64,000 bases of DNA. Origin: Halorubrum sp. PV6 (GTDB taxonomy: Archaea > Halobacteriota > Halobacteria > Halobacteriales > Haloferacaceae). The notes beneath the pieces were generated by a model. The model made no database searches, was not told where the DNA came from, and was given only the letters and a program-made list of their open reading frames with translations. The stretch lies in the NCBI RefSeq assembly GCF_003990725.2, contig NZ_CP030064.1, positions 1,426,001 to 1,490,000 on the forward strand. The letters are read 5' to 3'. The position numbers were made by a program, and so were the translations under genes. How positions within the stretch are numbered: the first letter of the stretch is position 1; the number at the start of each line of letters is the position of its first letter. Of the stretch, positions 7,036-60,115 are shown piece after piece.

Positions 7036-7745
7036 GCGATGGCGATTCCGCCGGCGCCGCCGTCGTGGCGGTCGTCGAAGCGGTCGCGGCGCGGATCGAG
7101 GCGGAGCGCAGCCACCTGACCGAACTCGACTCGGCCATCGGCGACGCGGACCACGGGGGGAACATGGCGCGGGGGTGGGCCGCGGCGGCCGACGCCGCCC
7201 GCGACCTCGACGATCCGGACGCGCAGACCGTCTGCAAGACGGTCGGCAAGACGCTCATGAGCGAAGTCGGCGGCGCTTCCGGCCCACTCTTCGGCGGGTC
7301 GCTCGTGTTCGCGAGCGCCGAACTCGACGACGGCCTGACTCCCGAGAGCGCGGTCGCGTTCGCCGAGACCTACTTAGCGAAGGTCCAGGACCGCGGCGAC
7401 GCGACGGTGGGCGACCAGACGGTGGTCGACGCGCTCACCCCCGCCGTCCACACGTTTAAAAAGTCGATCGAGACGGACGACCTCCCGCCGCTCGAAGCGC
7501 TCGCGAAGGCGGTCGACGCGGCCGAGCGCGGCGTCGCGTTCACCGTCCCGATCCGAGCCAAAAAGGGCCGGGCCTCCTACCTCGGCTGGCGCTCGGTCGG
7601 ACACCAAGACCCCGGCGCGACGAGCGTACTCTACATCCTCGAAGAGGTGCTCTCAGTCGTCGCAGAGCAGATGGACGCTGAGGTCCCCGACGTTGACGCG
7701 ACCTCGCCGACGATCCCGGACGACGCCGAGCCGGAGGACGACTGA
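7032..7745 (+). CDS. dhaL: Dihydroxyacetone kinase ADP-binding subunit DhaL
   Basis: 237 residues. DhaL holds a tightly bound ADP that acts as a phosphate relay between DhaM and dihydroxyacetone on DhaK. The Mg-ADP motif is visible near the N-terminus: ELDSAIGDADHGGNMARG, with its three aspartates. GGASGPLFGG and GDRTVGDQT-like (GDATVGDQT) segments follow, as in the family. The ATG overlaps the dhaK stop (ATGA), and dhaM overlaps its own stop, so the three subunits are translationally coupled and made together. The C-terminal ~20 residues are an acidic haloarchaeal tail. Confidence 0.95.
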   Translation: MSDGDSAGAAVVAVVEAVAARIEAERSHLTELDSAIGDADHGGNMARGWAAAADAARDLDDPDAQTVCKTVGKTLMSEVGGASGPLFGGSLVFASAELDDGLTPESAVAFAETYLAKVQDRGDATVGDQTVVDALTPAVHTFKKSIETDDLPPLEALAKAVDAAERGVAFTVPIRAKKGRASYLGWRSVGHQDPGATSVLYILEEVLSVVAEQMDAEVPDVDATSPTIPDDAEPEDD

Positions 7746-8125
7746 TGGTCGGGCTCGTCGTCGTCTCGCACAGCGCGCGGGCGGCTGAGGGCATCGTCGA
7801 AGTCGCCGCCGAGATGGCCGGCGACACCCGCATTGAGGCCGTCGGCGGCGACGGACAGGGCGGGATCGGTACCGTCCCGGACGCCATCGGCGACGCCATC
7901 GACGCGGCCGACGACGGCGACGGGGTGGTCGTCCTCGTCGACCTCGGCAGCGCGGTGATGAACGCCGACGTCGCCGTCGAGTTGAGCGACGCCGAGGCCG
8001 TCATCGCCGACGCGCCCGTGCTGGAAGGCGCGGTCAACGCGGCCGTCGCGGCGACCGACCCCGCCGCCACGCTCGACTCGGTTCGCGAGCAGGCCGAGGC
8101 GGCTCGGGGACTGGAGAAACTCTGA
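7745..8125 (+). CDS. dhaM: Dihydroxyacetone kinase phosphotransfer subunit DhaM
   Basis: 126 residues, a single EIIA-Man-type domain. The phosphorylated histidine is H9 in VVVSHSARAAEG, and VVLVDLGSAVMN near residue 60 is the second family signature. E. coli DhaM carries extra HPr and EI-like domains; this one does not, so it must receive phosphate from separate EI and HPr proteins, which are encoded convergently just downstream. It starts within the dhaL stop codon and ends the operon. The 20-bp gap to the ptsI stop codon means transcripts from both sides meet here. Confidence 0.95.
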   Translation: MVGLVVVSHSARAAEGIVEVAAEMAGDTRIEAVGGDGQGGIGTVPDAIGDAIDAADDGDGVVVLVDLGSAVMNADVAVELSDAEAVIADAPVLEGAVNAAVAATDPAATLDSVREQAEAARGLEKL

Positions 8126-49070: not shown

Positions 49071-52000
49071 CTACAGCCGCAGTCGCTCGACCGCGGTGCC
49101 GGCGTCGGCGAACGCCCCGAGCGTGTCGTCGCCGTCGGCCGCGCCGCCGGCGGTGTTCGCGGCGGCGACGACCACCGTCTTCGCGTTGAGCGTCGCGTCG
49201 AGCGTGAACTCGTACTCGCCGTCCGTCGGCGTCGCGAGCGTGGAGCCCTCCGCGGTGTGGAGCGCCACCGCATCGGCGGTGGTCTCACCCGAGATGACGA
49301 CGTCGCCGTCTTGGTGTTCATCCGTCGCCGTCAGTTCCGGCGGGGCGGTGCGGTCGCGTTCGACGTATCGGTCGCGGACGACCGCCGGCGTCTCGACCGG
49401 TTCGCCGGCGTCGACGCCGTGTGCGAGCCGGATGAACCCGGCCATCGACCACGCGAGGGGCGTCGCCCCCCCGGTTCCCTCGCCGAACTCCCAGCCGTAG
49501 TCGGTGGGGTGTTCGCGGTCCCACACCTGCTCCGGGAGCATCCGGCCGGAGTTGCCGAAGCCGGCCATCGTCTCCAGCAGGGCGTCCGGTTCGAGCGCGT
49601 CCTCGTCGGTGCCGCCGAACCCGTCGGGGCCGTCGGCGCGGGCGCGCAGTTCGTACTCGCCGCGCTCGCCGGTGAAGATCGGCCAGAGGCGCCCCCGCCC
49701 GTCGCCGGTCCCGGCCCAGGGACCGCCCGGATCGCCGCGGGCGATTTCGCCGTACGCGTCGCCGACGTATCGGTACCAGCCGGGGCCGTACGGCGTGTCG
49801 ACGCGGATCGAGTCGTCGACGACCGAGACGGAGTTGCGGACCACCTCGTCGTCGGCGGGTTTGATCCCGAGGCGGACCAGTTCGAGGAAGCCGCCGTCGA
49901 TGATCTCCCGCTCGTCGTAGGTCGGGCCGTCGTTCGCGATCGTCCGCGGCCGCCCGGACTCGGGGTCCCCGTCGGCGGTCACGCGCACGTAGTACGGCGT
50001 CTCGGCGTGGCGTTCGGTGCCCGTCGCAGTCGCGCACCACTCGTCGACGCGGGCCGTCCAGTCGTCCGCGAGCGCGAGCCACGCGAGCGCGTCGGCGCGG
50101 AGCGACTCGGGCGACGCCTCGGCCTCGGCGGCGCCCCCGTCCGCTTCGATACGGTTCGCCTCGATGCGGTCGGCCTCGGTGACGGCGAGGGCGGCCCCAC
50201 AGCAGAGGCCGGCGATCTCCGCGGCGATGCTCGACGGCGAGAAGCCGGCCTCCTCCTCCCAGCGCTCCTGGGCGGTCTCGGGGCCGTTGACGGCGATGTA
50301 GCCGAGCGAGCGACGCATCTGGTCGTACGTGTAGTCGGCGTCGCCCGGCGAGACGCCGTGCTCGTGGAGCTGCCACGCCATCACCGAGGGGAACGCGATG
50401 TTGTCCATCTGCTCGCCGCCCCACCGCGTCCGCCCGTCGATGTAGGTGTTCTGCGGGAGGAACCCGTCTTCGTCCTGCTGGGTGTTGTACAGGTACGCGA
50501 GCGCGTCGGCCCCGCGCTCGACTTCGCCGACCTCTATCAGCGCCGTGAACACCTGGTATAAATCCCGCGACCAGACGAAGTTGTACCCGTAGCCGCGCTT
50601 TTCTGCGGCGTACTCGGTCTCGCCCCACGGCACCGAGGGGCTGGCGATGCCCGCGCCGTCCTGTCGTTTGTCTTCGACGGCTGCGAGCGTCATCAGCGCG
50701 AATCGGTACTGCGTCGCCAGGTCCGGGTCATCCGTCACGGAGGCGGGGAACTGCCGGTCGTCGAGCCACTCCCGCCAGGTCGCGGCGTACGCCTCGGAGA
50801 CCGCCTCGAAGCCCCGCGAGACGGCGTCGCGAGCCTCGTCGAACGCGGCGGCCGCGTCGGCCCCTTCGGCGAAGCCGAGCGCCACCGTGTCCGACAGTTC
50901 GGTCCCGCTCCCGAGCAGTCCGGCGAGCACGACGTTGCCGGTCGCCTCCGTAGCGCCCTCGTCGCGCTGTCCCTCGTCGAAGAGCGCTTCGGTCACGTCG
51001 TCGCCGCCGACCATCGCGCTGGCCCACTCGAAACCGCTCGCGCTGTCGACGGCGAGCGCGACCTCGAACGGGTCGCCGTCCTCGTCGACCAGTTTGCCCG
51101 CGTCGCGGTCGGCGTCGATCTCGTTGCGCGCGATCAGGTGGTAGCCGTCCGTCCGCTCGACGCGGTGGCCGCGGTCGTTGGTCCCGACGTTCCCGACGGC
51201 GGTGTCGGCGACGGCGTACACGTCGTACTCGCGGCCGCCCTCGAAGGTCACGTCGGCGAGAATGGCGTGTCCCTCGGTGTCGACGGCGTACTCGACGGTG
51301 AGCGTCCACTCGTGGCCGTGGCTGTCACCGGTCTCGCGGATCGTCTGTGTGTACGCGAGAACGTCGTCGTCGGTCGGCTCCGTGGTCCGTTCGACCGTCT
51401 CCGTGGTGGAGACGTGGCTCGTCTCGTCGAAGGTTCGGATCGTGTAGCCGGTGTCGGGGTCGGCGACGAGGAAGTCGAACGTCCGGAGGTTCATCACGTC
51501 GATACGGGGGAACCGCGCCTCGGTCAGCGCCCCCTCGGTCAGCGTGAACCAGACCGGAACCGGGTCGGCGGCCTGGTGGTCGGCCGGGGTCCCGACGCCG
51601 AACTTCCGGCCGGTCGTCCAGTGGGGCCCGTCGGCCGGGCCGAACGGGTCGTCGTGCGGGACCGGAAGGGCCCCGTGTCTCGCCAACGTCACCGTCGCGT
51701 CGACGCGGAGGGCGTGCGACCACGCGATCGGGGTCGCGCCGTCGAGGTCGCCGTCGTCGAACGCCTGCTCGGCGATCAGCCCGGCGTCGTTGACGAAGGG
51801 GCCGTCGGGCTCACACAGCGTGTAGAGGTCGCGGGCGGCCCCGAACAGTTCGCTCGCGTCTCCGTCTCGCTCCTGGACGAACCCGCCGAGTTCGGCGGCG
51901 GCCGTCGCGCCCCACAGGGTCGCTATCGACCAGACCTTCGCCGCGCCCTGCTCGGCAGTGCGCCAGTCGTCGCCGGTGAACCTGACGAGCCCCTCGATGT

Positions 52001-53813
52001 CGGCGGTCTCGCGGTGGAGTTCGTCGATCGTCCCCAACACGTGTGTTATTACGTGATCGAGGAACTCGTCGACGTCGACTTCGGGGGTCGCTTTCGCGGA
52101 ACCGATCTCGTCGCGTTCGGCTCCGAGCTCCGCGTACTCCGTCACGGCGTTCGCGAGCGAGAGCGTGCTGGCGTCCGCTCGGTCGTCGCGGCTCTCCTCG
52201 CTCGCGCGCTGGGGGAACCGCTCCGTGTCCGGGTTCCATCGGTCGGCGAGGCCGGCGGCGGCGGCGTCCGCCGCGGCGAGCGCGTCGACTCGCACGTCGT
52301 CGGGGAGGGGCGCGCGAGCCGCCGCGGCGAAGGCGCGGAGGTACGTCGCGCCGGTGTGGGTGAACCGACCGAGCGCGTTCTCCCAGCAGTTCTGACACCG
52401 CTTCGGGAGCCCGTCGGATTCGGTCGTCTCGTGGAGGAACGCGAGGGCGTCGGCGAGCGTGTCGTCGATCCGGTCGCACCACTCCGCCGGGAGGTCTGCG
52501 GTTCGTCGGAGACGGGCGAGAAAGGCGACGACCGACGCGGCCTGGTCCAGCTGGTCGTTCGGGCCGGCGGTGTCGTTCGCGCCCTCGATCCGGGCGTTCG
52601 CCCAGCCGGGAGCCACCTTTCCGGAGTCGGCCCACACCCGGTGGGGCCACGAGCCGTCGGCGTCCTGCGTGCGACAGAAGAACGAGGCCGTCGCGAGCAG
52701 TTCCTCGTCGGCATCCAAGCCGAGTTCATCGCTCGCACCGAGGAGGGCGAGCGACGCCTCGGCCTCGTCGCGGAACCACGTGTAGCCGTAGCCACCGGAG
52801 GTCGCATAAAAGGGGTCGAACTCCGGGGCCGCGATCCGCGCGCCCGACTCGGCGGTCAGCAAGTCGAGGGCGCGGAGGTCGCTCGCGACCACCGACCGCC
52901 GCGGCGTGTCCTCGGGGACCGTCGGACCGCGGCCTTCGGCGGCCTCTCGCAGGTCGTTGGCGTCCGGGTACGCGGTCGCGATCCGGGACAGTTCGTCGAT
53001 CCGCCGCTGGCGGTTGGGGCCGTCGGAGACCGCGTCTTTCGCGTCGTCGCCGCGCTCGCGGCTCTCACGTCGGTCGAGGACCGCGCGGCTCGCGAGCGTG
53101 ACGCGCTCCGTCCGGCCGTCGCGCTCGAACGGCGCGCGGACGACGACGTTGGGCGTGAGCCGGGAGTCCTCTCGCTGGTCGATTTCGCCCCGCTGGTCGA
53201 TGGCGCCGCGGTGACCGAACTCCTCGCCGCCTTTGCCGGCCAGTTCGGAGATGCTCCGGAGTCGCTGCCCGTGTGCGGCCGACAGGCCGGTCGACGCGGT
53301 GAGGAAGTCGTGTTCGTTTCGGTGGTACACCTCGACGACACTGCCGTCGTCGGGGCCGGCCCCCTCGTGAACGAGGTTGCCGATCCGCCCCTCGACCATG
53401 TCGGGCGAGAACGCACAGGCGGCGACCAGTTCGGCGTCTGCCGGCGGCGCGCCGCGCAGTTCGACGTGCGTGAGGTGGGTGTCGCTCACAACCAGGTCGA
53501 ACTGGTGGATCGTGTACCGTCCGGCGTCGTACTCGGTCTCGACGAGCGGCGTGTCGCCGTCGTAGTGCTGGCGCGTCGTCGTCAGGTCGTCGAGCCATCG
53601 AACGCCTCGACCGGCGGTGATCCCCATACGGAGCCGGTCCGCGCCGCCGATACCGGAAAGGGAGTACGAACAGTCGTGGACGGTGCCGTTCCGTCCGACG
53701 TGGACCAGCCGTCCGTCGTCGCCCGTGAACGCGCCGGCGGTCGTCGGTCGCTCCGCCGGGTAGCGCTCGCCGCGCCGACGTTCGTGTTGCGTGAGAGCGG
53801 TTCGCAGTCGCAT
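49071..53813 (-). CDS. Double GH15 glucoamylase-family protein
   Basis: 1,580 residues, two GH15 modules in one polypeptide. Module 1 (about 1-710) has a beta-sandwich N-domain, then GGYGYTWFRDEAEASLALL near 336, NCWENALGRFTHTGATYL near 467 and IAWSHALRVDATVTL near 690. Module 2 (about 720-1470) opens like a glucodextranase N-domain (GRKFGVGTPADHQAADPVPV), then YGYNFVWSRDLYQVFTAL near 1080, WEEEAGFSPSSIAAE near 1190 and LWPIFTGERGEYEL near 1380. A last ~100-residue beta domain ends the protein. GH15 enzymes release glucose from non-reducing ends of alpha-glucans. No signal peptide, so it is intracellular. Divergent from malA. Confidence 0.88.
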   Translation of the reverse strand: MRLRTALTQHERRRGERYPAERPTTAGAFTGDDGRLVHVGRNGTVHDCSYSLSGIGGADRLRMGITAGRGVRWLDDLTTTRQHYDGDTPLVETEYDAGRYTIHQFDLVVSDTHLTHVELRGAPPADAELVAACAFSPDMVEGRIGNLVHEGAGPDDGSVVEVYHRNEHDFLTASTGLSAAHGQRLRSISELAGKGGEEFGHRGAIDQRGEIDQREDSRLTPNVVVRAPFERDGRTERVTLASRAVLDRRESRERGDDAKDAVSDGPNRQRRIDELSRIATAYPDANDLREAAEGRGPTVPEDTPRRSVVASDLRALDLLTAESGARIAAPEFDPFYATSGGYGYTWFRDEAEASLALLGASDELGLDADEELLATASFFCRTQDADGSWPHRVWADSGKVAPGWANARIEGANDTAGPNDQLDQAASVVAFLARLRRTADLPAEWCDRIDDTLADALAFLHETTESDGLPKRCQNCWENALGRFTHTGATYLRAFAAAARAPLPDDVRVDALAAADAAAAGLADRWNPDTERFPQRASEESRDDRADASTLSLANAVTEYAELGAERDEIGSAKATPEVDVDEFLDHVITHVLGTIDELHRETADIEGLVRFTGDDWRTAEQGAAKVWSIATLWGATAAAELGGFVQERDGDASELFGAARDLYTLCEPDGPFVNDAGLIAEQAFDDGDLDGATPIAWSHALRVDATVTLARHGALPVPHDDPFGPADGPHWTTGRKFGVGTPADHQAADPVPVWFTLTEGALTEARFPRIDVMNLRTFDFLVADPDTGYTIRTFDETSHVSTTETVERTTEPTDDDVLAYTQTIRETGDSHGHEWTLTVEYAVDTEGHAILADVTFEGGREYDVYAVADTAVGNVGTNDRGHRVERTDGYHLIARNEIDADRDAGKLVDEDGDPFEVALAVDSASGFEWASAMVGGDDVTEALFDEGQRDEGATEATGNVVLAGLLGSGTELSDTVALGFAEGADAAAAFDEARDAVSRGFEAVSEAYAATWREWLDDRQFPASVTDDPDLATQYRFALMTLAAVEDKRQDGAGIASPSVPWGETEYAAEKRGYGYNFVWSRDLYQVFTALIEVGEVERGADALAYLYNTQQDEDGFLPQNTYIDGRTRWGGEQMDNIAFPSVMAWQLHEHGVSPGDADYTYDQMRRSLGYIAVNGPETAQERWEEEAGFSPSSIAAEIAGLCCGAALAVTEADRIEANRIEADGGAAEAEASPESLRADALAWLALADDWTARVDEWCATATGTERHAETPYYVRVTADGDPESGRPRTIANDGPTYDEREIIDGGFLELVRLGIKPADDEVVRNSVSVVDDSIRVDTPYGPGWYRYVGDAYGEIARGDPGGPWAGTGDGRGRLWPIFTGERGEYELRARADGPDGFGGTDEDALEPDALLETMAGFGNSGRMLPEQVWDREHPTDYGWEFGEGTGGATPLAWSMAGFIRLAHGVDAGEPVETPAVVRDRYVERDRTAPPELTATDEHQDGDVVISGETTADAVALHTAEGSTLATPTDGEYEFTLDATLNAKTVVVAAANTAGGAADGDDTLGAFADAGTAVERLRL

Positions 53814-53901
53814 GGGTGCACTGCGATTCCCGAGGTGAAAGCCTTGACGAACGCGGGGTTCTTCGCTTCGCTTCAGAATCCCGTCGCATTGACCGAGGAG
53901 C

Positions 53902-53923
53902 AACACCAAAGACCCAGGGTGTT
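53902..53923. promoter_or_regulatory. Inverted repeat in the GH15/malA divergent promoter
   Basis: AACACC-N10-GGTGTT, perfect 6-bp arms, ending 12 nt before the malA ATG. No clear TATA box is visible for malA; the site would cover the -28 to -7 region if the mRNA is leaderless. This suggests a repressor or activator site shared by both directions. Confidence 0.45.
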
Positions 53924-53935
53924 AATGAAGAGCAT

Positions 53936-55993
53936 ATGCATCATCCAGGACCCCCGCGATTTCTCTCGACAGGAGAGACGACAGAGTTGGCGCCGAGAGA
54001 TCCAGACCCCGGCGGATCGTACGCGTGGCGCGTCGTCGACGCGCCACCGAACAGCGAGGCGACGGTCGGCAGCGAGCCGGTAACCCAGTTCACGCCGGAC
54101 GAGCCGGGTCGGTACCACATTGGGCTCGACGCGCCGGACGGCGACCACCTCCTGACGATTCGTGCGTTCCCCTCCAGCTACGAGGGCGTCGACGTCGAGG
54201 GCGGCAGCGGGACGGCGATCCGCAACCGCATCGCCGACGACGCGCCGGTGGGATACGCCGAGACGCAGGGCGACGCCGGCGTCGGGCGCCCGCGAGTCAG
54301 GCTCGACGCGAGCGTCGAGCGGGCGGACGCGGGCGAAGACGAGGTCGTCGTCCGCGCGACGCCGGCGCCGAATCCCGGCTCCGCGCTCGACGCCGACGAC
54401 CTGCGCGTGTCCTTCGTCGTCGACGACCGAGACGTGGCGGCCGCGATCGAATCGGGGCAGACGAACCCGCGAGACGCGCTCCGAACCGTCGCTGACGGCC
54501 GAGAGCTTCGGGTTCCGGTCTCCGCAGTTCCGGACCGACTCCGGGTTCACGGGGCCGCAGTGGCGGCGGAGCCCGGACAGGAGCCGCGAGTGAGCGTCGC
54601 CGACGCGGTCGCTATCGAACGGGACCGCGACGCGGCAGAAGTCGAGGGGCCGACGCCGGCCGAGTTCGAGACGGTTCGCCTCAACGACCCGCCGGCGTGG
54701 ACCAAAGACGCGACCGTCTACGAGGTGTACGTCCGGACCTTCGCCGACGAGGCGGAGGGCGACACGTTCGCGGCTATCGCAGACCGGATTCCGGCGATCG
54801 CCGACATGGGCGTCGACACGCTGTGGCTCACGCCGGTCCTCGAACACGACGGCAAGCCGCACGGGTACAACATCACCGACTTCTTCGACGTGGCGCCGGA
54901 CCTCGGCGACCGCGACGACTACGAGGCGTTAGTCGAGACGGCCCACGAACACGACATGCGAGTCCTGTTCGACTTCGTCGCCAACCACACCGCGCGCGAC
55001 CACGAGTGGTTCGAGGACGCGTATCAGAACCCCGAATCGCCGTACCGAGATCACTACGAGTGGCAAGAGTCCGGGGAGCCGGGCACGTACTTCGACTGGG
55101 AACTGATCGCGAACTTAAATCACAAGAACCTGGACGTTCGGCGCTTCCTCCTCGACGTGATAGACGAGTGGGCGCCGCTCGTGGACGGGTTCCGGTGTGA
55201 CATGGCCTGGGCCGTGCCGGACTCGTTCTGGCGGGAGCTCCGCGACCGCGTGAAAGACATCGATCGGGAGTTCCTGCTGATGGACGAGACGATCCCGTAC
55301 ATCCCCGGCTTCCACGAGGGGATGTTCGACGTTCACTTCGACGCGACGCTGTACTTCCAACTCCGGCAGATCGGGCGGGGCGTCGACCCCGCGGCCTCGG
55401 TGGTCGATGCGATCGACAAGCGCACCGAGATCGGCTTCCCGGACCACGCGGAGTTCCTCCAGTACATCGAGAACCACGACGAGACGCGCTACCGCGTCGA
55501 GTGCGGCGACGCCGCGGCGGCCGCGGCGGGCGCGGCCATCGTCACGCTCCCCGGCGTTCCGATGATCTACGCGGGCCAGGAGATCGGACAGCGCGGGCGA
55601 CGCGACGCGATCGCGTGGGACCACGCCCGCGAGGGGGTCCGTGAGCGCTACGAGCGACTGCTCGCGGTCCGGGCCGCTCACCCCGCGCTCGGCCCCGAGG
55701 GCGACTTAGAGCGCGTCGGCTACCACGTCGCGAGCGGCGACCTCTCAGAGCAGCCGGTCGTCGCAAGCGGCGACGTTCACCCCGACGACGTGGTGGCGTT
55801 CCGGCGCGACACGGACGAGGAGTCGCTGGTGGTCGTCCTCAACTTCGCGCCCGAGACGGCGAGCGTCGCGGTCGACGCGGACCACGCGACCCGAGACCTC
55901 GTGACCGACGAGTCGTGCGTGGTCGTCGACGGCGAGGGGACCGAACGGATTCGCGTGTCTGACGTCGCCATCGTCCGCGCGGGGGAGCAATGA
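53936..55993 (+). CDS. malA: GH13 alpha-amylase, MalA type
   Basis: 685 residues, beginning MHHPGPPRFLSTGETTELAP, typical of haloarchaeal intracellular alpha-amylases. An N-terminal ~240 residues of beta-rich domains precede the (beta/alpha)8 barrel. The catalytic triad is D422 in GFRCDMAW, E451 in LLMDETIP and D515 in IENHDETR. It cuts internal alpha-1,4 bonds of glucans or maltodextrins. No signal peptide, so it is cytosolic. Its stop overlaps the next gene by four bases. Divergent from the GH15 gene. Confidence 0.88.
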   Translation: MHHPGPPRFLSTGETTELAPRDPDPGGSYAWRVVDAPPNSEATVGSEPVTQFTPDEPGRYHIGLDAPDGDHLLTIRAFPSSYEGVDVEGGSGTAIRNRIADDAPVGYAETQGDAGVGRPRVRLDASVERADAGEDEVVVRATPAPNPGSALDADDLRVSFVVDDRDVAAAIESGQTNPRDALRTVADGRELRVPVSAVPDRLRVHGAAVAAEPGQEPRVSVADAVAIERDRDAAEVEGPTPAEFETVRLNDPPAWTKDATVYEVYVRTFADEAEGDTFAAIADRIPAIADMGVDTLWLTPVLEHDGKPHGYNITDFFDVAPDLGDRDDYEALVETAHEHDMRVLFDFVANHTARDHEWFEDAYQNPESPYRDHYEWQESGEPGTYFDWELIANLNHKNLDVRRFLLDVIDEWAPLVDGFRCDMAWAVPDSFWRELRDRVKDIDREFLLMDETIPYIPGFHEGMFDVHFDATLYFQLRQIGRGVDPAASVVDAIDKRTEIGFPDHAEFLQYIENHDETRYRVECGDAAAAAAGAAIVTLPGVPMIYAGQEIGQRGRRDAIAWDHAREGVRERYERLLAVRAAHPALGPEGDLERVGYHVASGDLSEQPVVASGDVHPDDVVAFRRDTDEESLVVVLNFAPETASVAVDADHATRDLVTDESCVVVDGEGTERIRVSDVAIVRAGEQ

Positions 55994-58536
55994 GCGGGAG
56001 AGAGGCGCCCGGCCGGCTCCGGGACGCGACCGACGCGCTCGTCGAGCAGTCGCGTCGCGACCGCGAGGCGGCCGACGACCGGTTCGGTGCCGCCCGAGCC
56101 ATCGCCGAGCGACTGGGCGCACACCCGATCCGCCCGGACGAGGCTGACCCCGCGACCGACCCGCCGAACGGGGTCGCGTTCGGCTTCTGGACCCCGGAGC
56201 TGACCGAGCGCGGCGTTCCCCTCGACGACGTGCGGCTCGAGCTGTTCACACCCCTCGCGGACGAGGCGAGCGAGTCAGCGGGCGCTATCGACCCCGGTTG
56301 CGACGACCTTCGGGACGTCGAGTTCCGCGTCGACCGAGTCCCCGTCGCGCGCGACGACGAGTTCCACTGGGTCGCCGTCGAGGGACTCCCGGTCGGGACC
56401 AGAGACCGGCTCGGTGCGCTCTATCAGTTGATTTACCGAACTCCGGACGGCGAGTGGGAGACGGTGCGGGACCCGCTCGCCCGGTCGGTCCCGTTCGGGG
56501 CGTTCGCGCCCGCGGAGGCGTACGACTGGCCGCGTCTCAACGCCACTCGCGCGGACCGCGACCACTTCGCCTCGTTCGGGGGTGACGACGAGGCGCTCCC
56601 GACGACCGAAGACGACGGGCTCCCGCGGGTCGACCCCGCGACGAGCATGCTCGAGATCCATCCCGGCACGTCGACCGATCGAGGGTCGCTCGGGGCACTC
56701 GCGGAGCGCTTCGAAGCGATCGGGGAGAAGCTCCGCGGCGACGAGCCGCTCGCCCCCCACGAACGGAACTACGCCGGCTACGACGCGGTCCAGTTGATGC
56801 CGGTCGAGCCGCTCACGCAGGCGTACGGCGAGCAGTGGTACTGGCGCCCCGGCGGGGCCCAAAGCGAGACCCCGGACGGGGCGCTCGACCGCGAGCGCGC
56901 CGCGGAGCGCGTCACCGTCGGCGTCGAGCGACCGGACCAGACGAACTGGGGGTACGACGTGGTCGTGAGCGCCTTTTCGGCCGCGAATCCCGCGATACTG
57001 GAGACGGGACGCCCCGACGAGCTCGTCGACTTCATCGCCGCCTGCCACGCGATGCCCGACCCCGTTCGGGTCGTCTTCGACGTCGCGCTCGGCCACGCCG
57101 ACGAGGGCGCTTCGGGGCTGCTCCCGGACCCCTTCTTCGAGGGGCCGGGGATGTACGGGCTCCACCTGGACTACCGTCAGCCCGTGGTGCGCGCGATACT
57201 GCTCGAACTGCAGCGCCGGAAGGCGAACTTCGGCGCGGACGGGATCCGGATCGACGGCGCACAGGACTTCACGTACCACGACGAGGAGACCGGCGAGCAG
57301 GTCCACGACGACGCGTTCCTCGCGGAGATGGACCGGGTGACACACGAGGTCGCCGGGACCGAGTACAGACCGTGGATGATCTACGAGGACGGGCGACCGT
57401 GGCCCCGGGAGGACTGGGAGCTCGCGTCGACGTACCGGACGCTGATCGACCAGCACCCCCACGCGTTCCAGTGGTCGCCGGTGACGTTCGCGCACAACAA
57501 GCCCGCGCTGCTCACGTTCTGGGCGACGAAGTGGTGGCGCATGCGCGAGGTCGGCGAGATGGGGAGCCAGTGGATCACCGGCGTCGCGAACCACGACACG
57601 CTCCGGCGCGGGTCGCAGGTCGAGGTGACCGACGACTGGGGCGGGGCGCTTATCAACCCGTACCTCGCCGACTCGCCGCCGGAGACGATCCGCGAGGCGT
57701 ACGACAGCCCCGCGGCGCTCGTCTGGTTCCACGTCGCGATGCCGGGCGTCCCGATGGACTTCCTGCACGCGAACTACCGCGCGCCTTGGGGATTCGTCCG
57801 GGACACCGACCCGACGTGGAACGTGAAGGTCGTCGCCGAGGAGGCGCCGTGGATCGACTGGCACGTCCCGGAGGGGTCGTTCGCCGGCGGCGACGCGTTC
57901 CCCCGGCTGAAAGGACTCGGGTTCGAGACGCGCGCGGAACTCAAGGGATTCGTCACCAAACTCGCTGCGCTCATCGACGCGACCGGGTACGACCTCGACA
58001 TGATCGCTGAACTGCTGTCCGTACAGGGGACGCCGCTGTCGACCGCCGACAGCGACATTACCGCCGCCGACCTCCAGGCGTTCTCGTTCGCGTGGAGCGC
58101 TGACGTGGCGGAGTACCTCGTCTTGGATCGGTGGGAAGACGAGCAGGACGACGCGCGGACCGCGTTCGACCGCCGCGTCCGCGAGTTCCGGCAGGCCCGG
58201 CCGTGGCTCCGGGACGACATCGACGACGGTCGCGGCGAGGCGTTCGGGTATCGGCACCCGACCGAGGGGACCGTGGTGTATCAGGCCCTCAGACGCGACC
58301 CGGACGGCGGCGAGTCGCTGCTGATCGCCTGCAACGTCGAGGGAACGCCCGTGGAGGTGTCGCCGACCGGCGTCCGCGACGACCTCGGTCTCGGAGACGA
58401 ACACGGAGCGGCACGCGACTGGACCGTCGCGCTCGCGGGCCCCGACACGGCGGTCGAAGTCGGCGACGACGCCGGTCCCGTCAGGCTCGAAACCGCAGAC
58501 GCGGTCGTGTGGCGCGCGGAATCTCGCGACGACTGA
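55990..58536 (+). CDS. GH13-like hydrolase, probable glucosylglycerol hydrolase
   Basis: 848 residues. A divergent GH13 barrel with nucleophile D422 (DGIRIDGAQDF), acid E466 (MIYEDGRPW) and D536 (VANHDTLRRGS). Family cues IHPGTSTDRGSLGALAERF, NWGYDVVVSAFSAANPAIL and MYGLHLDYRQPVVRAILLEL recall the glucosylglycerol hydrolase (GghA) type known from cyanobacteria. That enzyme splits glucosylglycerol, a salt-stress solute, into glucose and glycerol. The naming rests on memory of the family and is less sure than the GH13 call. It overlaps malA by four bases (ATGA), so the two are co-expressed. No signal peptide. Confidence 0.7.
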   Translation: MSGREAPGRLRDATDALVEQSRRDREAADDRFGAARAIAERLGAHPIRPDEADPATDPPNGVAFGFWTPELTERGVPLDDVRLELFTPLADEASESAGAIDPGCDDLRDVEFRVDRVPVARDDEFHWVAVEGLPVGTRDRLGALYQLIYRTPDGEWETVRDPLARSVPFGAFAPAEAYDWPRLNATRADRDHFASFGGDDEALPTTEDDGLPRVDPATSMLEIHPGTSTDRGSLGALAERFEAIGEKLRGDEPLAPHERNYAGYDAVQLMPVEPLTQAYGEQWYWRPGGAQSETPDGALDRERAAERVTVGVERPDQTNWGYDVVVSAFSAANPAILETGRPDELVDFIAACHAMPDPVRVVFDVALGHADEGASGLLPDPFFEGPGMYGLHLDYRQPVVRAILLELQRRKANFGADGIRIDGAQDFTYHDEETGEQVHDDAFLAEMDRVTHEVAGTEYRPWMIYEDGRPWPREDWELASTYRTLIDQHPHAFQWSPVTFAHNKPALLTFWATKWWRMREVGEMGSQWITGVANHDTLRRGSQVEVTDDWGGALINPYLADSPPETIREAYDSPAALVWFHVAMPGVPMDFLHANYRAPWGFVRDTDPTWNVKVVAEEAPWIDWHVPEGSFAGGDAFPRLKGLGFETRAELKGFVTKLAALIDATGYDLDMIAELLSVQGTPLSTADSDITAADLQAFSFAWSADVAEYLVLDRWEDEQDDARTAFDRRVREFRQARPWLRDDIDDGRGEAFGYRHPTEGTVVYQALRRDPDGGESLLIACNVEGTPVEVSPTGVRDDLGLGDEHGAARDWTVALAGPDTAVEVGDDAGPVRLETADAVVWRAESRDD

Positions 58537-58624: not shown

Positions 58625-60115
58625 ATGCGACTCGACCGTTCCGGCGGCGTGTTCTGTCACGTCACCTCGCTTCCAGGACGACACGGTATCGGCGACCTCG
58701 GTGACGGCGCACGCGAGTTCCTCTCGTTTCTCGGCGACGCCGATGTCGGCCACTGGCAGATCTGCCCGCTCGGGCCGACGATAGGCGCCGCCGGGGAGTC
58801 CCCCTACCAGTCCCCCTCCGCGTTCGCCGGCAATCCGCTCTTGATCGACCTCGACGGCCTCGTCGACGACGGCTGGCTCGACGAGTCCGATCTCACGCCC
58901 GCCCCCGACTTCCCGAGCGACCGCGTGGACTACGAGGCGGTCCGCGGGTACAAAGAACCGCTTTTGCGGACCGCGTTCGAGCGGTTCGACGAGGCCGGCG
59001 CCGGCGACGCGGCCCCCGACTTCGACGCCTTCTGCGAGCGCGAGTCGTGGCTCGACGATTACGCGCTCTTCCGTGCGCTGTCGGCGGAACGAGACGAGGC
59101 CACATGGGTCGACTGGCCTGACCCGCTCCGGACCCGCGAGCCGGACGCACTCGCCGACGCACGCGAGCGACACGCAGGCGAGATCCGGTTCCGCGAGTTC
59201 GTGCAGTGGGTGTTCGACCGCCAGTGGCGCGAGTTGCGGTCGGTCGCCGACGACGAGGGCGTGTCGATCGTGGGTGACGTGCCCATATACGTCGCGCTCG
59301 ACTCCGCCGACGTGTGGGCGAACCCCGAGGCGTTCCGGCTCGACGAGGGGAACCGCCCCACCGCGGTCGCGGGCGTGCCGCCGAACCCCGGCGACGACGG
59401 CCAGCGATGGGGCAACCCCGTCTACGACTGGGATCGGCTCGCCGAGCGCGACTACGACTGGTGGATCGACCGGTTCCGCCGGCTCTTCGACCTCGCCGAC
59501 GTGGCTCGGCTCGACCACTTCCTCGGGTTCGTCAAGTACTGGGCGATCCCCGCCGACGCCGACGATCCGGCCGCGGGCGAGTGGTGTGACGGCCCCGGCC
59601 GCGCGCTGTTCGAGACCGTCGAGCGTGAGTTAGGGCAGGCCCCCTTCATCGCGGAGGACCTCGGCTTCGAGGAGCCGGCGATGAACGAACTGATGGCGGA
59701 GTTCGGCTTTCCCGGCATGCGCGTGCCGCAGTACGCCGACTGGTGTGCGGAAGGAGACCAGTATCAGCCCATGCACTACCCGGAGGGCGTCGTCGGCTAC
59801 ACGGCCACGCACGACACGAACACGTGGGTCGGCTACTTCGAGTCGCTCCCCGAACGCCAGCGCGACTGTTTCCGCTTCAACGTCGGTGCCGACGGCGACC
59901 GCGCCCCCGAGTGGGAGATCATCGACGAGGTGTGGGCCTCGGGGGCCGTGCTGGCGATGACGACCCTGCCGGACCTGCTCGGTCGTGGGAGCGAGGCGCG
60001 GTTCAACGAGCCGGGAACGCTCGACGGCAACTGGGAGTGGCGCGTCCGCCGAGAGGCGCTCGACGACGACATCGCCGACCGACTGTTCGAACTCGCCGGC
60101 CGACACGTGAGATAG
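58625..60115 (+). CDS. malQ: 4-alpha-glucanotransferase (GH77, MalQ)
   Basis: 496 residues. Starts MRLDRSGGVFCHVTSLPGRHGIG, a canonical GH77 opening. The nucleophile Asp is in VARLDHFLGF, the acid/base Glu in FIAEDLGFEEP, and the stabilising Asp in TATHDTNTWVGYF. It moves maltodextrin chains between glucans, disproportionating short chains so that amylases and glucoamylase can finish them. It follows the GH13 gene after 88 bp. The exchanger gene starts four bases after it, making an operon likely. Confidence 0.94.
   Translation: MRLDRSGGVFCHVTSLPGRHGIGDLGDGAREFLSFLGDADVGHWQICPLGPTIGAAGESPYQSPSAFAGNPLLIDLDGLVDDGWLDESDLTPAPDFPSDRVDYEAVRGYKEPLLRTAFERFDEAGAGDAAPDFDAFCERESWLDDYALFRALSAERDEATWVDWPDPLRTREPDALADARERHAGEIRFREFVQWVFDRQWRELRSVADDEGVSIVGDVPIYVALDSADVWANPEAFRLDEGNRPTAVAGVPPNPGDDGQRWGNPVYDWDRLAERDYDWWIDRFRRLFDLADVARLDHFLGFVKYWAIPADADDPAAGEWCDGPGRALFETVERELGQAPFIAEDLGFEEPAMNELMAEFGFPGMRVPQYADWCAEGDQYQPMHYPEGVVGYTATHDTNTWVGYFESLPERQRDCFRFNVGADGDRAPEWEIIDEVWASGAVLAMTTLPDLLGRGSEARFNEPGTLDGNWEWRVRREALDDDIADRLFELAGRHVR

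Follow-up and report, generated by a model that had tools for sequence, protein, structure and literature searches.

In Synechocystis sp. PCC 6803, the hydrolysis of glucosylglycerol (GG) requires Slr1670 (GghA), a protein of the GHL5 family (PMC5002435, PMC6753628). The cyanobacterial enzyme is inhibited by salt (PMC6753628). Savakis et al. 2016 had recorded GHL5 homologues in alphaproteobacteria and halophilic archaea, with halotolerant organisms over-represented, and these homologues frequently carry an alpha-amylase annotation (PMC5002435). Since archaeal homologues have been published, the presence of GHL5 in haloarchaea is not new (PMC5002435). No biochemistry of any archaeal member was found in the open-licence literature. 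The GG phosphorylases, GH65 Bsel_2816 (PMC3899277) and the GH13_18 enzyme GGP of Marinobacter (PMC10873239), act on the substrate proposed here for the archaeal protein, but they belong to other families and use phosphorolytic chemistry.

The window, i.e., the whole analysed stretch of 64,000 nucleotides of Halorubrum sp. PV6 (NZ_CP030064.1, positions 1,426,001 to 1,490,000), contains a GHL5 gene within the cluster GH15-GH15 / MalA / GHL5 / MalQ:

49071..53909, minus strand: divergent gene with two GH15 (glucoamylase-type) halves, from profile matches; start codon uncertain
53936..55993, plus strand: malA, haloarchaeal alpha-amylase MalA (NF041321, 893 bits, cut-off 875)
55990..58536, plus strand: GHL5 (PF14872) glycoside hydrolase of the GghA/Slr1670 family, 848 aa, from the Pfam profile and predicted structure
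58625..60115, plus strand: malQ, 4-alpha-glucanotransferase (GH77), directly downstream of the GHL5 gene, from profile matches

The GHL5 reading frame is intact, with an ATG start and zero internal stops over its 848 codons, and its start overlaps the malA stop by 4 bp (ATGA, 55990-55993). The earlier note mentions neither this overlap nor the conserved maltodextrin cluster. The Pfam profile PF14872 matches the protein with 658.9 bits (E 1.4e-197; curated cut-off 23.7) over residues 19-822 of 848 and profile positions 4-789 of 809. GHL5 was the sole Pfam family matched, and the GH13 alpha-amylase profile PF00128 gave no match at E 0.001. By its Pfam family, the window protein is thus a GghA-family member, Slr1670 having been assigned to GHL5 (PMC5002435). 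Both the GghA-type resemblance proposed in the earlier note and a placement apart from the ordinary alpha-amylases are borne out. The neighbouring MalA has a GH13-type fold as well but represents a separate family. Among the NCBIfam models only TreZ (TIGR02402) matched, with 34 bits against a cut-off of 539, and a PDB sequence search returned zero relatives at E up to 1. The nearest named homologue is that of Halorubrum kocurii (90-92% identity). Inspection of the N-terminus by eye revealed no apparent signal peptide; the protein is probably cytoplasmic.

The active-site residues, each invariant in 105/105 aligned homologues, are located as follows:

57079..57081, plus strand: Asp364, the region I Asp (D-x-x-x-G-H369)
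57253..57255, plus strand: Asp422, predicted nucleophile (GADGIRIDG), assigned by the GH13 motif
57385..57387, plus strand: Glu466, predicted acid/base (EDGRPWPxxDWEL)
57595..57597, plus strand: Asp536, predicted transition-state stabiliser (NHDTLRRG)

The three acidic catalytic residues that the earlier note described as kept (D422, E466 and D536) are therefore fixed throughout the alignment, as are the further GH13-type residues His369 (region I), Arg420 and His535 (region IV). The AlphaFold2 model of the protein (pLDDT 87.5, pTM 0.92) predicts a GH13-like fold: its best PDB matches were GH13 enzymes, with TreZ 2bhu at the top (E 4.6e-19). In the same alignment, the active-site motifs are common to the archaeal proteins and those of GG-making Rhodobacteraceae. 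The haloarchaeal proteins are only ~40-46% identical to these GG-linked homologues, and at 28 positions archaea and Proteobacteria each have their own fixed residue, some of these positions being near the active-site motifs (387, 463, 479 and 606).

Scanning genome contigs with the motif pattern EDxRPxPxxDWxL revealed at least 81 GHL5 loci. Hosts among the matches listed were Rhodobacteraceae, Balneolaceae, Nitriliruptoraceae, Spirochaetes, Chloroflexi, Halanaerobacter and haloarchaea. None of the listed matches was titled cyanobacterial, which does not imply absence; either the acid/base loop of cyanobacterial GghA deviates from the pattern, or such loci may lie beyond the matches listed. No GHL5 relatives were found in the scanned viral contigs, and the plasmid search gave one match alone, in Rhodobacteraceae.

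The Rhodobacteraceae sample comprised 149 genomes, of which 14 carried an intact GHL5 gene, one carried fragmented GHL5 and GgpS (glucosylglycerol-phosphate synthase) genes, and 134 had no GHL5. GgpS exceeded the curated cut-off in 14/14 genomes with intact GHL5 vs 8/134 without it (Fisher p ~1e-13, a value that overstates the evidence because related genomes were counted as independent). This co-occurrence supports GG hydrolysis in that branch. The ggpS gene lies close to GHL5 in three Rhodobacteraceae loci (L155, L181 and L198), accompanied in L181 by an S6PP-type phosphatase and gpsA. In the genome with the fragments (G358:C16:160158-171829), the remnants of ggpS and GHL5 are ~11 kb apart, which suggests joint loss. 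No report of GG genes or metabolism in Rhodobacteraceae was found in the open-licence literature.

In many loci of this family, GHL5 adjoins glgB or malQ. Glycogen operons hold the gene after glgB or malQ in L035, L091, L093, L101, L155, L181 and other Rhodobacteraceae loci. Glycogen synthesis draws on ADP-glucose. The same precursor is used by GgpS (PMC5002435), and glycogen or maltodextrin neighbours are therefore compatible with a GG hydrolase.

Other GHL5 carriers include heterotrophic halophiles. A gene for a Na+/solute symporter is found just upstream of GHL5 in the Balneolaceae loci and in a Bacteroidetes bin, the latter also having a TonB receptor. In Halanaerobacter jeridensis (L216), GHL5 is accompanied by sugar-binding proteins, a TreC-like GH13 enzyme, beta-phosphoglucomutase, a GH65 phosphorylase and a LacI regulator, a putative locus of alpha-glucoside scavenging. 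The check for GgpS covered three genomes of these groups, that of Halanaerobacter and those of the Balneolaceae loci L129 and L126, and none of the three had it over the cut-off. The contexts in Balneolaceae, the Bacteroidetes bin and Halanaerobacter fit uptake and breakdown, that is, scavenging.

According to the earlier note, a salt-in archaeon does not need GG itself. GgpS over the cut-off is absent from the archaeon's own genome and was recovered from 0/292 Halobacteria, so that the archaeon cannot make GG by the GgpS route. Co-occurrence with GgpS, lacking in the archaeon and present in Rhodobacteraceae, characterises organisms that make GG and not the enzyme as such. Unlike Synechocystis, the haloarchaeal host makes no GG, and the archaeal gene is found with malA, malQ and a glucoamylase gene instead of ggpS and glpK. 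Furthermore, the archaeal protein would need to be active in molar salt. A supply of GG is plausible, since the compound is abundant in a hypersaline mat (PMC3985010, PMC10251406). Neither GG use by haloarchaea nor GG occurrence in a haloarchaeon was found reported in the open-licence literature.

Of the readings considered, an intracellular GG hydrolase used for scavenging ranks first, with about an even chance of being correct. In this scheme, the protein would work inside the cell as a GHL5/GghA-type alpha-glucosidase with a retaining mechanism, converting 2-O-alpha-glucosylglycerol into glucose and glycerol. Cyanobacteria and other halophiles that make and release GG would be its most likely source, and import would proceed through a sugar transporter whose gene would lie away from the cluster. 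The glucose would be used together with what the adjacent maltodextrin enzymes produce, and the glycerol kinase encoded in the genome would phosphorylate the glycerol. The entry of glycerol into central metabolism, as assumed earlier, would have its enzyme: glpK is present at C1:988895, ~0.49 Mb from GHL5 and lacking linkage to it. The matching ABC transporter sought near the gene did not materialise; all ten SBP_bac_1-type matches lie elsewhere in the genome, one of them near the strongest GH13 gene (C1:2514193-2518877). The scavenging proposed in the earlier note is upheld in part: the contexts in other halophiles without GgpS fit it, and the haloarchaeal cluster, being composed of maltodextrin genes with no adjacent transporter, counts against it.

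Against GG hydrolysis stand the maltodextrin-degrading neighbourhood of the haloarchaeal gene and its tracking of MalA across genomes, as well as the ~40-46% identity and the 28 group-fixed differences described above. No GG transporter, regulator or glycerol kinase is adjacent to GHL5 in the window cluster. Among 292 Halobacteria genomes, 48 carry GHL5. MalA exceeds its cut-off in 45/48 of these vs 75/244 genomes without GHL5 (Fisher p 7e-17, likewise overstating the evidence as related genomes were treated as independent). Given this neighbourhood, GHL5 may instead have a changed substrate or serve the clean-up of GG formed inside the cell. That haloarchaea folded a GG-type hydrolase into the maltodextrin pathway, for a new substrate or for the removal of GG made by transglucosylation, is a tentative possibility, somewhat short of an even chance.

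The first of these two variants, in which haloarchaeal GHL5 was recruited to maltodextrin breakdown, is rather unlikely; the enzyme might then be, for instance, an exo-glucosidase or a trimming enzyme whose substrates are the short or branched malto-oligosaccharides that remain after the action of MalA and glucoamylase. Besides the overlap of malA and GHL5, this variant is favoured by the arrangement at other haloarchaeal loci: in 35/47, MalA precedes GHL5 on the same strand (at a distance of up to 200 bp in 32 of the 35), and in 33/47 the divergent GH15 double gene is nearby. The malQ gene follows GHL5 at each of the six further loci from this genus, and in five more haloarchaeal loci a CBM20 amylase adjoins GHL5 and a TrmB regulator is encoded nearby. 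In 48/48 GHL5 genomes, the MalA match scored 830 bits or more. The haloarchaeal proteins also form a single clade against the bacterial sequences (SH-aLRT 100), in which the window protein is sister to that of H. kocurii. However, the GgpS-linked bacterial homologues have exactly the same core active-site motifs, and the GG-making Rhodobacteraceae also have GHL5 near glgB or malQ, so such neighbours do not exclude GG hydrolysis.

The second variant is improbable. MalA, MalQ or other transglucosylating enzymes would glucosylate cytoplasmic glycerol, and GHL5 would hydrolyse the product, freeing the trapped carbon. This accounts for the membership in a GG-hydrolase family as well as for the maltodextrin cluster, with no need for a transporter. 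GG synthesis by alpha-glucosidases is known chemistry according to work cited in PMC11787520, and glycerol is probably a substrate of this archaeon because its genome encodes glycerol kinase. However, GHL5 is missing in 75/120 MalA-positive Halobacteria genomes, the Balneolaceae and Halanaerobacter contexts indicate uptake, and the silence of the open-licence literature on GG in haloarchaea also weighs against clean-up.

A TreZ-like partner in the maltooligosyltrehalose pathway, suggested by the rank of TreZ as nearest fold among solved structures (TM-score 0.70, by target length) and as the sole NCBIfam match, is rejected as very unlikely: identity to TreZ is ~16%, the TIGR02402 score is far under the cut-off, and TreY over its cut-off was found in 0/28 GHL5-bearing haloarchaeal genomes tested, the own genome included. 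An ordinary alpha-amylase, to which the GH13-type motifs and fold and the common annotation of homologues might point, is just as improbable given the absence of PF00128 and of PDB sequence relatives and GHL5 as the only Pfam family.

If GG is hydrolysed, the protein would provide a defined enzyme through which salt-in archaea obtain carbon from cyanobacteria and bacteria that make GG, and it would be a counterpart of cyanobacterial GghA that is active in salt instead of being inhibited by it. If GG is not the substrate, annotation transfer inside GHL5 would be unsafe, and the conserved malA-GHL5 pair would indicate an undescribed haloarchaeal maltodextrin step. Should GHL5 indeed have joined the maltodextrin pathway, it would constitute an unrecognised additional step in archaeal starch use.

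Several loci show further features. In the divergent gene at 49071-53909 of the window, one half is oligosaccharide amylase-like and the other glucan glucosidase-like, and the fused pair is conserved across haloarchaea. The haloarchaeal proteins of L082 and L083 are found on long branches, and L083 is without the otherwise conserved motif string ANHDTxRRG. The ABC genes downstream in these two loci were considered as a GG transporter and rejected, as the binding protein is of the SBP_bac_6 type and the genes are convergent. In L072, a gene for an MscS-type mechanosensitive channel (7207-8088, identified by Pfam) lies immediately upstream of GHL5, and the neighbour clusters of L053 and L073 match that of L072. 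A link between this channel and solute release on hypo-osmotic shock is possible.
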